Origin: an uncultured Oscillospiraceae bacterium
GTDB lineage: Bacteria; Bacillota; Clostridia; Oscillospirales; Acutalibacteraceae
Assembly: GCA_900546785.1 (NCBI GenBank)
Contig: URED01000023.1
Span: 1-34,329 of the forward strand
Length of the DNA stretch: 34,329 bases
Direction: 5' to 3'
Positions 28,801-34,329 of the stretch are shown here, in pieces. Numbering within the stretch: the first letter of the stretch is position 1; the number at the start of each line of letters is the position of its first letter. The notes beneath the pieces were generated by a model. It ran no database searches. It saw only the letters and a program-made list of their open reading frames with translations, and was not told the origin of the DNA. A program made the position numbers and the translations under genes.

Positions 28801-28851
28801 GAAACGTGCATTTTGGATAGCCGAAAATCATAGTAATTACAGGTGATGAAA

Positions 28852-29199
28852 ATGATTTCGGCAATACTTTCTTTTTTGAGTGCAAATTTTTTATACTTCA
28901 TACTGCACATCAACAACACATCAAGCTTTCCGAAACCGCTGGACAGGAAAGAGGAAAAGGAGGCTATCCGAAGACTTCAGGCGGGCGACAAAGACGCACG
29001 CGCATTGCTGATTGAGCGAAACCTGCGCTTAGTAAGCCACATCGTTAAAAAATACTATTCAAAAACAAATGACAATGACGACCTGATCTCAATCGGCACG
29101 ATAGGGCTTATCAAAGCGATTGACAGCTTCAATCCGGAAAAATGCACGCACCTTGCTACATATGCAAGCAAATGTATTGAAAATGCTATGCTAACATAA
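28852..29199 (+). CDS. sigK: Sporulation sigma factor SigK, N-terminal half (interrupted gene)
   Basis: These 115 residues match the N-terminal half of pro-SigK, the late mother-cell sigma factor. A hydrophobic pro-sequence (about 1-20) is followed by SSFPKPLDRKEEKEAI, which parallels the cleavage-site region and the FPQPLS stretch of Bacillus SigK. Then come sigma region 2 elements: ALLIERNLRLVSHIVKKY, DDLISIGTIGLIKAIDSF and LATYASKCIEN. Family similarity stops abruptly after CIEN (residue 111), and the frame ends four codons later (A-M-L-T-stop). The rest of region 2, region 3 and region 4 are absent, so this half cannot act alone. AGGTG six bases before ATG 28852 favours that start over ATG 28846 or GTG 28843. 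The break matches the site split by the skin element in B. subtilis. Confidence 0.9.
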   Translation: MISAILSFLSANFLYFILHINNTSSFPKPLDRKEEKEAIRRLQAGDKDARALLIERNLRLVSHIVKKYYSKTNDNDDLISIGTIGLIKAIDSFNPEKCTHLATYASKCIENAMLT

Positions 29200-29264
29200 C
29201 AGCAACAATTTGTGCCTTAAAGCCGCAAAATATATGCATTATTCCGAAAATTAACAAATGGAAT

Positions 29265-29798
29265 GTGTATAGATCATTGTCTAACGCGTATATTTTGCAC
29301 AGGATAAAGAACGGTGCAGTTGAGTACGCACCCCTGTTTTGTGTGAAACTCAAAGTGAATAACTACAAGCACTATTCGTTCAATGCTTTTAATGAAATTG
29401 ATGATTCCACTTGTGGCGGCGCAGTCAAAAAGAGAAGGATAGAAAAGCACCTGACCATCAAACAAGTAGCCGGCGAAGTCGGTGTCAGTGTTGATACAAT
29501 AATGCGCATTGAAAAGAACGAGTATACCATGCATAAACAGGACAAGTTGAATAAACTATGCGAAATCTTAGAAATACAAGCAGAAAAAATCTGCTCACCT
29601 TATCAGTTGTTCCTGCTGAATAACCAAGGTGAGCAGATTTTAAAATATCGTAAGGAAAATCATTTATCGCAAAGCGCACTTGCCGATATGCTCGGCACAT
29701 CACGCCAGCGCATAGGCGCTTGGGAGAAAAACAAAAACCATATGCCATATGAGGCGTGGAGAAAATTAAGCACTCTGCCGAATCACCAAACGCCGTAA
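29265..29798 (+). CDS. Double helix-turn-helix (XRE-type) regulator, start uncertain
   Basis: The frame encodes two Cro/C1-type HTH domains. The first is at about 51-109 (AVKKRRIEKHLTIKQVAGEVG, then SVDTIMRIEKNEYT) and the second at about 123-171 (ILKYRKENHLSQSALADMLG, then SRQRIGAWEKNK). A 50-residue N-terminal segment has no recognised domain. No ATG lies upstream of the first HTH. GTG 29265 is the first reasonable start, but it lacks a ribosome site, and the frame is open back to the sigK junction at 29181. The gene may be 5'-truncated or start at a later GTG. Its end overlaps the convergent phosphoesterase gene by 16 bases. It is a likely repressor of the element. Confidence 0.68.
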   Translation: MYRSLSNAYILHRIKNGAVEYAPLFCVKLKVNNYKHYSFNAFNEIDDSTCGGAVKKRRIEKHLTIKQVAGEVGVSVDTIMRIEKNEYTMHKQDKLNKLCEILEIQAEKICSPYQLFLLNNQGEQILKYRKENHLSQSALADMLGTSRQRIGAWEKNKNHMPYEAWRKLSTLPNHQTP

Positions 29799-30505
29799 AA
29801 ATATTTTTTGATGTTGCCGGCGTCAGGATAATTTAACTGATCGATCCTATCAACTACAAGATTTGCTTCATACTGAACATCTATCGTCTGAACTTCAATA
29901 TTTTCAAGTGTAATATTAACAACACTTGCCCACGCTATGTTTCTGCTTTGAGCGGGGCAACCAAGCGAGTCAACATTGATGTAAAGTTTGTTGCCTTTAC
30001 AAATATTTCGTTGGTGGTCATGTCCGTATAAAACGATTTCACTTGCTACATTTGAAAACATCCGTTTCAGATCATCTTCAGACGGATTCGGTCTGTAGTT
30101 GATATAGTGACCGTCGCGATCCATACAATAATGCAAAACGGACACAGTATGACCTTCACACACCGTATCTATCCGATACGGCAGACTTTTAAGAAAATCG
30201 ACCGAACCGAGCGACAATAAACTGTACTCCCATTTATGATGTTTCATCTCTTCAACGCTCATTCGCTCTTCGTTCGGATATTCGCTCGGCATTCCCTCGA
30301 GCAGATACTTTTCGTGATTGCCGCGAACGGCTATCAAATTCGGAATATTCATTACAAACTGCACAGTTTCTTCCGGATACGGACCTATCCCGATCATATC
30401 GCCGCAGCAAATGATCTGATTGCTATTCAATTCATCCAATCTTTCCATAACCGCTTTAAGCGCCGGCAGATTGCTGTGTATATCTGTTATAACGCCGATT
30501 TTCAT
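29783..30505 (-). CDS. YfcE/MJ0936-type metallophosphoesterase
   Basis: This 240-residue calcineurin-like phosphoesterase has the complete metal-binding set: D8 and H10 in VITDIHSN, D36 in CGDMIG, N63-H64 in RGNHEKY, and GHDH near residue 165. ATG at 30505 has AGGTGA directly upstream; the longer frame has no site. It has its own promoter at 30544-30571 and is separated from the operon upstream by 92 bases. Relatives hydrolyse phosphodiesters or phosphoproteins. Its substrate is unknown. It sits in the sigK-interrupting element. Confidence 0.85.
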   Translation of the reverse strand: MKIGVITDIHSNLPALKAVMERLDELNSNQIICCGDMIGIGPYPEETVQFVMNIPNLIAVRGNHEKYLLEGMPSEYPNEERMSVEEMKHHKWEYSLLSLGSVDFLKSLPYRIDTVCEGHTVSVLHYCMDRDGHYINYRPNPSEDDLKRMFSNVASEIVLYGHDHQRNICKGNKLYINVDSLGCPAQSRNIAWASVVNITLENIEVQTIDVQYEANLVVDRIDQLNYPDAGNIKKYFYGVW

Positions 30506-30543
30506 AATTTCACCTGCAAAAACAAACACAAAATATCTGTTTT

Positions 30544-30571
30544 ATTATAGCAAATAAATCATTCAATGCAA
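30544..30571 (-). promoter_or_regulatory. Promoter of the YfcE-like phosphoesterase gene
   Basis: The minus strand has TTGCAT (30566-30571), a 16-base spacer and TATAAT (30544-30549) preceded by TGC. Confidence 0.65.
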
Positions 30572-30597
30572 AGTAAATTAAGTGTTCATATTCCGAA

Positions 30598-31626
30598 TTA
30601 TTTCAAGTCTCCTATTTCGGCACTTAAATATTTATAAACACTGTCATATATATACTGATTTTTTATCGCGTCTTGACCGGCATTCAGCCACAATGGCCGA
30701 GTCATAAAAACATTTATAACAACAACATAATGATGTGGATCATCTGTTTTTAATACGTCATTTATCGCATCAATAACTTTACCATACTTATGATTTTTGT
30801 AATTACAGTACGCTTCTATAACATTTTTGCCATTACTGCTTTTGTCAACTGCAATTCTGATCTCAGCCTCGCTCTGGACCTGCTCCGTTTCTGATGATTC
30901 ACATTGAAATACCAAGTTTGAAGCACCACTGCATTTATATTTTTGATTTATGTATTCCGCAAGCGAACCGTAACAAAATGTTGCTGATTTACCGTCTGAA
31001 TTTTCGGTATGGACATTTATTTTACTGCCGGGAAAGAACATTGCGCACATCTGCGCAATGTCTTCAAAATCAGAATATGAAAAGTTTGAGTCATCCGTAC
31101 CTGCATTATGTAAGACTTCGTCATCAATCCTAAATTCAATATCTGTCTCTTTAGCCTTTGATTCACAAAATTCTTTTGAGTATTTTACAAAATCCCCATC
31201 AGCAAATTCCGCTCTATACATTATGCCGTCCTGCTTGATAGAAACTTTAAAATATTTCATAAGCATCTGAGATACGGCTAAATAATTAAGGCCTATATCA
31301 TCTCGGTCTTTAATGACGTCAGTTAATGTTAAATTCGGCTGCTTAAAATTGAAATTCGCCGTTTTATCAGACAGCTCACAAAATTCTCTTTCCCAAGCAG
31401 ATATATTGTCTTTAAGAACTGCCCAGTGATTTAAAGAATTGGTTTTAAAAATGAAGGAACCGTCTGAGCACATCGAAAAATCGAACTGGCGCACACCGTC
31501 AAAATAAAATTGAACAACAAACTGTCTCATAAATTTATGAATAAGATTGTATTTTAATGAGTGATAAGTATCTGATAACAGGACATCGGGTCTGTTGCGA
31601 ACCTTGTCTTTTAATGACATCTTCAT
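30598..31626 (-). CDS. GyrB/ParE N-terminal-like protein without ATPase motifs (candidate pseudo-enzyme)
   Basis: This 342-residue protein has no membrane helix. Aligned by eye to the GyrB ATPase and transducer region, the order is kept. VRNRPDVLLSDT (9-20) corresponds to GyrB VRKRPGMYIGDT. The segment at 111-144, ending KQDGIMYRAEFADG, corresponds to GyrB QREGKIHRQIYEHG. FEDIAQMCAMFFPGSKINV (187-205) corresponds to its RLRELSFLNSGVSI region, and FCYGSLAEYINQKY (217-230) to FHYEGGIKAFVEYLNK. VVVINVFMTRPLW (301-313) corresponds to the last transducer strand. The catalytic Glu-Asn helix, DGRGIP and the GGLHGVG ATP lid are all replaced, and no TOPRIM domain follows. AGGAGA precedes the ATG. It ends the element operon. 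The relation is distant and needs a profile search. Confidence 0.5.
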   Translation of the reverse strand: MKMSLKDKVRNRPDVLLSDTYHSLKYNLIHKFMRQFVVQFYFDGVRQFDFSMCSDGSFIFKTNSLNHWAVLKDNISAWEREFCELSDKTANFNFKQPNLTLTDVIKDRDDIGLNYLAVSQMLMKYFKVSIKQDGIMYRAEFADGDFVKYSKEFCESKAKETDIEFRIDDEVLHNAGTDDSNFSYSDFEDIAQMCAMFFPGSKINVHTENSDGKSATFCYGSLAEYINQKYKCSGASNLVFQCESSETEQVQSEAEIRIAVDKSSNGKNVIEAYCNYKNHKYGKVIDAINDVLKTDDPHHYVVVINVFMTRPLWLNAGQDAIKNQYIYDSVYKYLSAEIGDLK

Positions 31627-31637
31627 AATGTTGTCTC

Positions 31638-32489
31638 CTATAAACCTATTTTTTCATTTTGGCAGAAAGTCGCAAAGATGTGATCATATGCCTCTGCATA
31701 CATTTTAGTATTTCCACCATTGTTTATTTCTTCCAAATCGGATTCTTCGCCTAGCAAACCATGATAATACTGATCTGTATCAACATTACGATAGATAACA
31801 TGATTGGTTTGCTCAAATCGATACATACATACAATATACAGAGGCTCTATATATTCGTCAACATTTTTATCATCCGATTGAACAGGAAGATCAAAATGCT
31901 GAAAATAGAAAGCCGATTTCAATGTTACAAAATAGTATGAATAAACCATCATTGCAATAACATATAAAGCGGTTGCTGTGTTTACATCGGGTATTACCGC
32001 ATTTGGCGAATCCAAAAACATATATGCATAAAATGCGATGTATGCAGAGCCGAAAAGGAAAATTGTAATTTTAGATGAATATTTAATATTTGACAAATAA
32101 AGGCTGATATAAAAAGCTGCCTGAAGGCCTGTGTATATTAACTCGATATACTCATCCATTGCATATGTATTCAGAAAAGACCAAAAACCTATAAAAACAT
32201 CACCAATGGTTAAAAACATACATAAGAGCAGGGTTGCATTAATATAAGAACGAGTTTTTCTACCGTCAGTAAATATACCGACCTTCAATTTATCTGGAAT
32301 AGTCATAAATATAAAATAAATCATCTGAAAAAAGCATAAAACCATATTTATTATATCCATCGCACTATCCGATATTGCAGATGCTCCAAAATCATATGTA
32401 ATCAATGAATAAATAATAATTGCCAATCCGGCAATAACGGCAACCGGTCCGGCGGAATATTTCGCAACTAAACAAGTTTCCCTATCCAT
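31638..32489 (-). CDS. Polytopic membrane protein with a cytosolic tail, unknown function
   Basis: I do not recognise this 283-residue protein. Six hydrophobic helices can be placed at about 15-34, 44-64, 81-108, 113-133, 139-160 and 172-196. A hydrophilic C-terminal region of about 85 residues follows, rich in Asp, Glu, Asn and Tyr. No catalytic motif was seen. Its ATG overlaps the stop of the preceding membrane protein gene by one base (TAATG), and the GyrB-like gene follows after 11 bases, so the three are translationally linked. The pairing suggests a membrane complex. Confidence 0.6.
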   Translation of the reverse strand: MDRETCLVAKYSAGPVAVIAGLAIIIYSLITYDFGASAISDSAMDIINMVLCFFQMIYFIFMTIPDKLKVGIFTDGRKTRSYINATLLLCMFLTIGDVFIGFWSFLNTYAMDEYIELIYTGLQAAFYISLYLSNIKYSSKITIFLFGSAYIAFYAYMFLDSPNAVIPDVNTATALYVIAMMVYSYYFVTLKSAFYFQHFDLPVQSDDKNVDEYIEPLYIVCMYRFEQTNHVIYRNVDTDQYYHGLLGEESDLEEINNGGNTKMYAEAYDHIFATFCQNEKIGL

Positions 32490-33040
32490 TACTTATCCTC
32501 CTTAAATCTATCATTTGTCATATAAAGCCAATCCGCAATGTATACCAACAGCAATGATGAGCAAAGTGCAATTGTCAGCCAAATCCCGTTTACTACAACT
32601 ATAATGGTACACAGCGCCAAGATTACGGTACCGATCTCTTTTACCGTTTTATTAAATGTGAAAAATGCATTTCGTTTAAAGAGCGGTGCAACAGAATTGA
32701 CAAAAAGCACTGCGGACATGATAATTACCGCGCCGGTCTCAGGCACAAAAGGCACATTGAAACGATAAAGCACAAACGCGTGTATCACAGAAAATACAAG
32801 TATGCCAAGAGATACAGAACCAAAAAAGATATTATATCCCGTTTCTATGTAACGGAACTTTTCTTTAAGGACCATTATAAGCATCATTAACGAGTATATG
32901 GCTGAAAAGACAAGCGACACAATATTGCCTTTACCCAAATGCATGGTAACAGCAAAATATGCTGCCACTGCTGAAACGACAAGCGACAAAAGGCACAAAA
33001 ATACACTGAGATTTTTTAAAGAATTTACTTTATTTTTCAT
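32489..33040 (-). CDS. Small polytopic membrane protein, unknown function
   Basis: I do not recognise this 183-residue protein. It is almost entirely hydrophobic, with about six candidate helices (for example about 11-33, 41-62, 71-95, 105-123 and a long double stretch 134-172) and short charged ends. ATG at 33040 has GGAGG six bases upstream; the in-frame GTG two codons earlier would leave no spacing. It follows a metallophosphoesterase gene by 17 bases and is coupled to the next membrane gene. Confidence 0.6.
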   Translation of the reverse strand: MKNKVNSLKNLSVFLCLLSLVVSAVAAYFAVTMHLGKGNIVSLVFSAIYSLMMLIMVLKEKFRYIETGYNIFFGSVSLGILVFSVIHAFVLYRFNVPFVPETGAVIIMSAVLFVNSVAPLFKRNAFFTFNKTVKEIGTVILALCTIIVVVNGIWLTIALCSSLLLVYIADWLYMTNDRFKEDK

Positions 33041-33057
33041 ATACACCCTCCTATTTT

Positions 33058-33777
33058 TCAGACTTGTTTAACGTCATAAAACAGCGCATTAAACATTTTC
33101 TCTTTTCCATGAATAATAAATGATTTACTTTCGTCGGTATGCCAATGGCCAAAATACCACTGCTTAAACTCTGTTTCGTGCATAATCCAATCGAAAAATC
33201 CGTTAAGTTCATATTCTTCAGGAGATGGGATCTTGTGCAGCATAAGTTTCACTATTTCGCCCGGACAAGTATGAGTGATTACATAATCCACTTTATTACC
33301 TACCGTCTTTAATGACTCGATAGCGCGTTTATACTCCTCATCATTCGGCAATTCCTGCGGCCACCAGGATATATCCTGAGTTCTGTAAGCTTTATCGACG
33401 CTGTATGCGCCGCCGAAGGTAAAAAAAGTCTTGCCTTCAATGTTGTATATTCTTCCCCGTTCGAGATGGTAGATATTATCACGAATCTTATGGGCAGGAG
33501 CGCCGTATTTCTCAATTTCAGGATAGGAATACAGTTCATTAAAGTTTTCGTGGTTACCGTCTACGAACAGAATCTCATACGGCTTCTTTGACAGTTCATC
33601 CAACTGTAAATTATCTGCTGTTTTGCCGGTATGATCTCTACTGTTATACCATATAAATCCGAAATCACCGCAAACGATAAGTTTATCATGCTCACTCAGG
33701 TTGCTTTCAGAGTCAAGGCAGATTTCGCTGAATCTGCCTATATCACCATGCATGTCACCCGTAATATAAATGCTCAT
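33058..33777 (-). CDS. Calcineurin-like metallophosphoesterase
   Basis: This 239-residue phosphoesterase has a full set of metal-site motifs: D8 and H10 in TGDMHGD, D38 in CGDFGF, N75-H76 in DGNHENF, H in VITHTCPGE (about 170) and GHWH near residue 212. It differs clearly from the YfcE-like protein at 29783-30505 and resembles phage- or plasmid-borne metallophosphatases. It lies 17 bases after the DUF1292-like gene and 17 before the first membrane gene, in one apparent operon. The substrate is unknown. Confidence 0.85.
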   Translation of the reverse strand: MSIYITGDMHGDIGRFSEICLDSESNLSEHDKLIVCGDFGFIWYNSRDHTGKTADNLQLDELSKKPYEILFVDGNHENFNELYSYPEIEKYGAPAHKIRDNIYHLERGRIYNIEGKTFFTFGGAYSVDKAYRTQDISWWPQELPNDEEYKRAIESLKTVGNKVDYVITHTCPGEIVKLMLHKIPSPEEYELNGFFDWIMHETEFKQWYFGHWHTDESKSFIIHGKEKMFNALFYDVKQV

Positions 33778-33794
33778 TATAACACCCCTTTAAA

Positions 33795-34049
33795 TTAAAA
33801 TTTTCTATAATAAGTTTCTTTGACGTCTTTCCACTCCTGAAGAGAGTTGATCGCACGCAAACACAGATCATCCGATTCGGCGTTATAGATAGAAATATAT
33901 GTTTTTCTACGCCCAGCATGATCCGGTATATTGTCCGTAAAAGCGATATAAGTTCTGCCATAACTTTTAATGCTAAATACGGCGAGGCATTCATATTTTT
34001 TCTTTTTGCCGTTTGCGTCAAAGGCGTAAAAAGTATCGTGTTTTTTCAT
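33795..34049 (-). CDS. DUF1292-like small protein
   Basis: This 84-residue protein shows the pattern of DUF1292 (YrzB-like) proteins: a short beta start (TFYAFDANGKKKKYECLAVF), then SYGRTYIAFTDN, and a late ISIYNAESDDLCLRAI. The C-terminal EWKDVKETYYRKF fits the family end. ATG at 34049 has AAGGGGAA upstream. Function is unknown. It begins a run of closely spaced minus-strand genes. Confidence 0.55.
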   Translation of the reverse strand: MKKHDTFYAFDANGKKKKYECLAVFSIKSYGRTYIAFTDNIPDHAGRRKTYISIYNAESDDLCLRAINSLQEWKDVKETYYRKF

Positions 34050-34151
34050 AAAAATTCCCCTTTGCCAAATCATATAAGAAAGAAAAATCTTTCTATATAG
34101 ATGATATCACCGATTCGCAGAAAAATAGAATTTATGGTTTGGATGTAATAA

Positions 34152-34328
34152 TTAATCACTTTCACAGAGTGAAAGCATCTTGTTAAAATCCAATACATCA
34201 TCGAGCAATCGATTTTCATATAACGATCTAAATATTGCGGCTGATTTTGCCTGACAATTTAAACTTTTACGGGGTGTAAATATAATATCAGTAAATGCTG
34301 AATACTGTAACAATTCTCTGGATAAATC
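34152..34328 (-). CDS. C-terminal end of an unrecognised protein (runs off the right edge)
   Basis: An open frame enters from the right edge and gives 58 residues, beginning DLSRELLQYS and ending CESD before a TAA. It looks helical and cytosolic. The fragment is too short to identify. It is on the same strand as the element operon, 102 bases before the DUF1292-like start. Confidence 0.5.
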   Translation of the reverse strand, partial: DLSRELLQYSAFTDIIFTPRKSLNCQAKSAAIFRSLYENRLLDDVLDFNKMLSLCESD

Positions 34329-34329
34329 C

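Follow-up and report, generated by a model that had tools for sequence, protein, structure and literature searches.

Programmed excision of DNA from sigK has been described in a few cultured Bacilli and Clostridia. In Bacillus subtilis, sigK is interrupted by the skin element, which carries the gene of a large serine recombinase (LSR), SpoIVCA, and is excised in the mother cell (PMC10745906, PMC5025042). In Clostridioides difficile, excision of skinCd during sporulation is driven by the recombinase CD1231 with CD1234, and the element has the opposite orientation to that of B. subtilis (PMC5025042). Attachment sites within genes are described for the SSV-type suicidal integrases, whose recombination site lies in the recombinase gene itself, which integration divides (a review, PMC8371274, calls them exclusively archaeal), and for mycobacteriophage BPs, where attP lies within a regulatory gene and the prophage protein is shorter than that of the free phage (PMC4557955). 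In engineered fusions of a serine integrase with its recombination directionality factor (RDF), the domain tethered to the C-terminus sets the direction of the reaction (PMC5737554). Here we analyse a contig of 34,329 nt from an uncultured Oscillospiraceae bacterium (URED01000023.1 of assembly GCA_900546785.1; the window), in which sigK is interrupted, and follow the interrupting DNA from position 28852 to 34329. The sequence supports the conclusion that the window holds the left part of a skin-type element that splits sigK and whose recombinase should lie beyond 34329. The best explanation of the whole, which we consider probable, is a skin-type integrative element whose excision would rejoin both sigK and a reading frame that fuses the LSR to a double helix-turn-helix (HTH) domain.

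The sigK 5′ half, including its pro-sequence region, is located at 28852..29199 on the plus strand. This open reading frame (ORF) matches the NCBIfam model spore_sigmaK, TIGR02846, with an E-value of 3e-45 over profile positions 1-114 of 227. It is SigK-like over 28852-29181, up to the residues C-I-E-N, and then reads A-M-L-T before a stop at 29197-29199; family likeness is kept to codon 111 (29184), and the departure falls within GAAAATG (29179-29185). The G+C fraction is 0.478 over 1-29181 and 0.367 over 29182-34329. No sigK 3′ half was found within the 34,329 nt, and no recombinase is encoded among the eight ORFs scanned in the last 5.5 kb. The first-pass annotation had described a pro-SigK frame that leaves its family in GAAAATG after C-I-E-N, A+T-richer DNA to the right of the break and the absence of a recombinase from the first 5 kb of that DNA, and our analysis agrees on all of these. 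It had also seen foreign DNA with accessory genes there; the DNA is indeed foreign, but the first ORF of the element (29184-29798) had been overlooked as a double-HTH domain in the phase of the LSR frame. A sigma-E/K promoter upstream of sigK was considered. By eye, a CATA-like box is seen there (28829-28837) and in several relatives, but it sits so near the start codon that a normal leader would not fit, and we do not claim a promoter.

The departure at this one codon recurs among relatives. A scan of genome contigs with the sigK N half yielded 79 loci, of which 66 read through the site and 13 leave the family at the window's codon (L004, L011, L019, L022, L031, L032, L033, L041, L042, L045, L047, L063 and L077, where the case of L022 is a contig end and that of L011 a remnant). 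No sigK N half was found in viral contigs. Of the best 120 short homologues in the protein database, 99 depart at the site and 16 continue through it, whereas 4 have no such site and 1 terminates at it. Because the search admitted only 0.55-1.75 times the query length and full-length SigK thus fell outside it, the 99 departures are not a frequency. In a sample of 80 genomes from the genus of the L002 genome (the genus sample), sigK matches across the site in 59 (G448 and G431 with internal stops), is split in 11 and is a remnant in 1 (G002), while in 9 it was not recognised among the matches listed (including G450, whose single match ranked below these). The interruption therefore lies inside a coding sequence that is uninterrupted in relatives, which is the arrangement of a skin-type element and the one that the first-pass annotation had proposed to look for. 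Its reading of the break as the skin site is borne out in relatives. L185, a contig with a Bacillus-like SigK in the B. subtilis arrangement, is split after the same C-I-E-N; its LSR frame, however, is closed by a stop of its own ahead of the core.

A dead sigK fragment or an assembly join at about 29185, both raised in the first-pass annotation as ways in which its reading could fail, would account for our finding neither an LSR nor a sigK 3′ half in the window. Genome G002 provides a case of decay: its sigK has a small deletion at the site (L011, 10330), and about 40 kb away on the same contig a decayed LSR stands beside a second, damaged sigK 3′ half (L231, 1392-2092). We nevertheless regard this explanation as very improbable. 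The 457-514 bases to the right of the site are 75-87% identical in G006, G007, G008, G009, G010 and G012 and meet the sigK N half at the same joint; the same junction in six other split genomes rules out an assembly join. In G004, one of the 11 split genomes, the contigs break exactly at the core, L022 ending in the sigK GAAAATG and L232 starting with AAATGA and the 3′ half, as a mixture of intact and split templates would give. The ratio of nonsynonymous to synonymous polymorphism (pN/pS) of the sigK 5′ half is 0.184 when split (11 sequences) and 0.181 when intact (12), and that of the 3′ half is 0.166 (9 sequences) and 0.172 (12), respectively. Given this equal constraint, the split genes appear to be in use, and we reject the dead fragment for the group.

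To follow the remainder of the element, we turned to relatives. Five elements are complete on a single contig (L019 and L031, about 8 kb; L077, 9 kb; G007, 29 kb; G012, 34 kb), and all five have the order sigK 5′ half, cargo, LSR, sigK 3′ half, with the LSR on the strand of sigK. The LSR also adjoins the 3′ half in G001, G008, G009, G010 and G011, and at all ten right ends first examined it stands directly before the 3′ half on the same strand, which is where the first-pass annotation had expected a recombinase. As in the B. subtilis skin element, the LSR of these relatives lies inside the element; in contrast, the B. subtilis recombinase is found beside the sigK 5′ half and points in the opposite direction (PMC10745906). 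The relatives share with skinCd the orientation opposite to that of B. subtilis. However, skinCd occupies another site than the B. subtilis skin, in a SigK described as having no pro-sequence (PMC5025042), whereas the window retains a pro-sequence region.

Two main classes of LSR occur in the genus, A (578 amino acids) and B, the latter 46-47% identical to the former; the LSR of G011 is 67% identical to class B, and the window element was assigned to class B by its left end. In the integrated LSR of L085, the Resolvase, Recombinase and zinc-ribbon domains are all complete. In a quick LSR tree, the sigK-adjacent enzymes do not form one clade and LSRs adjacent to feoB are nested among them, so we do not claim a single origin. 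The latter group (L148, L150, L090, L094, L095, L096 and L152) lies against an ORF with matches to Gate and FeoB_C in L148, and therefore probably interrupts or borders feoB; its LSRs fall in one clade with L251, L253, L254 and L256. Genome G009 contains a second class B element outside sigK (L223, G009:C89, about 1855; L224, G009:C13, 2382-4181), with an LSR 96% identical to that of G012 whose frame continues 12 codons into the flanking DNA. Relatives of the LSRs that are carried by plasmids and phages (in C. difficile, P. sordellii, R. albus and Terrisporobacter) are annotated as self-contained genes.

Comparison of left ends, right ends and uninterrupted sites locates the crossover within the LSR reading frame. 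The site attB reads GAAAATGA around the codons E-N-E. Class A elements have left ends GAAAAAGC and right ends GCGAATGA, and the bases common to attB and both ends are AA; in class B (the window, L084 and L087) they are AAATG, and right ends reading GATAGAAAATGA have a few more in common. In the window, the attL core AAATG inside GAAAATG occupies 29181..29185 (plus strand), so the comparison puts the crossover where the earlier annotation had placed the break. At all ten right ends first compared, the LSR frame has no stop ahead of the core, and the codon that follows is a TGA contributed by sigK DNA, out of frame with sigK. The same holds for 37 of 43 right ends overall: these ten, 20 from the family sample and viral contigs (L235-L250, L258 and L182-L184) and 13 from the class sample, in which 29 loci were fetched and 22 have sigK, less seven minimal elements and two with the LSR facing the sigK N half. 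The attachment core of the relatives thus lies inside the recombinase reading frame, as in a self-splitting recombinase; for its own element, the window supplies the left end only.

At the other end of the element, the frame that leaves the core in LSR phase is open as well. In the window it comprises 204 codons and a stop (29184..29798, plus strand) and encodes two Cro/cI-type HTH domains, HTH_19 and HTH_3 matching two stretches each; we propose it as a C-terminal extension of the LSR in the excised circle. Counting the window, 20 of 22 distinct left ends keep this frame open over 164-215 codons. Of the 22, twelve were reached through the sigK N half and the other ten through an extension-profile search of 25 genomes; in those ten the extension is present by construction, and only the open frame and its phase are tests. 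The element of G140 lies the other way round: its LSR faces the sigK 5′ half and its extension adjoins the 3′ half, and again the frames meet in phase. The extension can be aligned among class A, class B and L077, with 21-24% identity to the window across classes. An AlphaFold model of the window extension has a mean predicted local distance difference test score of 75.6; no PDB entry matches it at E <0.001, the best matches (4e-3) being XRE-type regulators such as SinR. Because the LSR frame is stopped by a host TGA at the core and the extension is open in the same phase, excision should rebuild both sigK and an LSR-HTH fusion.

The HTH ORF could instead be an independent gene of an ordinary skin-type element, expressed in the integrated state, with the LSR phase inherited and without function. 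We consider this quite unlikely. No start codon is conserved: there is no ATG, GTG or TTG before codon 96 in L019, 94 in L268 and 64 in L077, although six of seven class B sequences have a GTG or TTG at codon 28. Constraint at the protein level also reaches ahead of the HTH domains, with pN/pS values of 0.20 in frame versus 1.09 and 1.71 in the other frames for class B codons 1-83, and 0.33 versus 1.41 and 0.94 for class A codons 1-67. Most simply read, these codons form the C-terminal part of the LSR and are translated once the element has been excised as a circle. Phase and open frame, kept in the 20 left ends and in the inverted G140, likewise speak against an independent gene, as does a natural fusion in the viral contig L214, where an LSR of 701 amino acids ends in a double HTH that matches the extension profile with an E-value of 1.4e-9. 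In phages, however, the ORF with an HTH that comes after the LSR uses a different frame (L289, L211), which favours an independent gene; in the packaged Terrisporobacter phage TPELB_ph1, such an ORF in a different frame stands directly 3′ of the LSR (E 2e-5).

The linker of the L214 protein gene contains a palindrome that may be due to chance. At the start of contig G155:C88 (L287, 1-165), an apparent LSR tail leads in frame into an extension, with a stop 25 codons further on, and the contig's own LSR lies about 14 kb away; this joint is perhaps the boundary of two sigK elements in tandem. A palindromic operator upstream of the LSR was considered as a target of the HTH domains. Perfect arms of 8 bases occur in L085, L087, L093 and L089, but arms as good arise in 4 to 16 of 200 mononucleotide shuffles, and at the same arm length L084, L088, L080 and L082 are no better than chance; we do not claim an operator.

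Several findings weigh against a fusion made by excision. Six right ends depart from the pattern: the LSR frames of L244, L297 and L300 end short of the core, and in L250, L258 and L296 the core is AACGA and provides no TGA, so that the frame continues into host DNA. Two left ends have no open extension, L033 stopping at codon 2 and L047 after 57 codons, and of 18 family-level genomes whose LSR adjoins sigK, 6 yielded no extension. Six of the 22 left ends, all from family members, have an ATG at codon 5 or 6, from which separate translation would be possible, as an independent gene would have it. The first codons show weak constraint (class B 1-27, 0.52 in frame versus 0.72 and 1.52; class A 1-35, 0.45 versus 1.41 and 0.62). 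Searches of the protein database returned no fused LSR-HTH protein, which also favours an independent HTH gene. For the window itself, the LSR and the sigK 3′ half are outside the sequence and, judging from relatives, should be found beyond 34329; excision, the circle and the rejoined sigK are predictions.

We propose the following course of events for the fusion. By analogy with B. subtilis and C. difficile, the LSR would, during sporulation, act in the mother cell to recombine attL with attR; the element would leave as a circle, and sigK would become continuous. Insertion at sigK would be harmless, since it is undone in the very cell that needs sigK. The same excision would join the LSR frame to the double-HTH ORF, so that the circle would encode an LSR-HTH fusion; the integrated copy has the coding capacity only for the short LSR, whose catalytic part is complete. 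The short form is most likely sufficient for excision. The long form most likely serves the circle, where a changed site preference or direction, or self-repression, could assist transfer and re-integration.

A different role for the HTH part is conceivable in which no fusion is needed: the mother cell would translate it from the sigK transcript, by re-initiation or through a -1 slip at the core, and it would then work in trans as a directionality factor with which the short LSR starts excision. The HTH ORF overlaps the end of the sigK N-half ORF and therefore lies on the sigK transcript. In C. difficile, where the LSR is constitutive, excision requires a directionality factor specific to the mother cell (PMC5025042), and fused integrase-RDF proteins recombine attL with attR (PMC5737554). 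The C. difficile factor CD1234, in contrast to the extension, is described as a separate protein of 72 amino acids (PMC5025042). We find a trans-acting factor unlikely: near the core, no start codon is accompanied by an evident ribosome site, and minimal elements that do not have the extension still keep both sigK halves in frame to the site.

These minimal elements consist of the LSR and little else between the two sigK halves. Seven were found in the class sample (L309, L311-L314, L318 and L320; 1634-2945 bases), of which L318 and L320 have one further ORF of about 200 amino acids. Five have a co-directional LSR, and in these the extension phase is open for no more than 8-12 codons. Their existence fits, without proving, a fusion in which the extension serves the circle and its transfer and is dispensable for excision. 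At the other extreme, the G012 element carries a relaxase (PF03432), a MobC/NikA-like protein, an AAA_25 ATPase, glycoside hydrolases and an FGGY sugar kinase, and the G007 element a relaxase (PF03432), an FtsK/SpoIIIE-FHA protein and a WXG100 match below cut-off. On account of their relaxases, these two look like mobilizable elements. Cargo across the elements thus ranges from barely more than the recombinase to sugar-utilisation genes and an FtsK/SpoIIIE-FHA locus.

The part of the element inside the window encodes no relaxase or mobilization protein. Its cargo genes, all on the minus strand, comprise a calcineurin-like phosphoesterase (29783..30529; PF12850, E 6e-19; PF00149, E 2e-15), a protein of 342 amino acids with weak GyrB-like NCBIfam matches far below cut-off (30598..31626), ORFs of 283 (31638..32489) and 185 (32489..33046) amino acids that match no family, a second calcineurin-like phosphoesterase (33058..33777; PF00149, E 7.5e-11) and an ORF of 92 amino acids with a weak DUF1292-like match below cut-off (33795..34073). 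Models of defence systems gave only weak matches to this cargo. As far as scanned, it is unrelated to that of the B. subtilis skin element, from which the first-pass annotation had recognised none of the genes here. A search of the genus sample with the window cargo for the right end recovered only the conserved left end and separate phosphoesterase homologues. One stretch 75% identical to the window's second phosphoesterase (L001, 7694-8386; window 32987-33689) lies about 1.6 kb upstream of an uninterrupted sigK in a close relative.

Elements in sigK, and attachment sites inside a regulatory gene or inside archaeal tyrosine integrases, were already known; what appears to be new is an LSR frame split at the sigK core, with an HTH extension at the other end of the element. 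As in the archaeal suicidal integrases, integration would divide the recombinase gene at its own site. Those are tyrosine recombinases whose catalytic gene is broken, whereas the enzymes here are serine recombinases whose catalytic part is whole and from which only the HTH domain is parted. As in mycobacteriophage BPs, an attachment site inside a gene shortens the product on integration, although there it is the repressor and here the recombinase. In contrast to the man-made integrase-RDF fusions, the predicted fusion is natural and would be made or undone by recombination; an RDF role for its HTH part is hypothetical. Among the matches listed in the open-access literature, which left subscription papers and bioRxiv largely outside its scope, we found neither a bacterial self-splitting serine recombinase nor a survey of sigK elements in gut Clostridia.

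The splitting of sigK is a recurrent, polymorphic trait of mostly uncultured Clostridia, present in 11 of 80 genomes in one genus sample. Arguments for and against seem to us evenly balanced for the more general proposal that a bacterial LSR reversibly splits its own gene on integration, with a short LSR for excision and a long, double-HTH LSR made only from the circle. Direction or self-regulation would then be set by the rearrangement and coupled one to one to the state of sigK, and elements giving up mobility would lose the extension and shrink to about 1.6 kb. If this is true, bacterial serine recombinases would show what a review calls exclusively archaeal (PMC8371274), and an element would have a simple way to distinguish its integrated from its circular state. 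The extension could then be a sequence marker of elements still selected for circular life.

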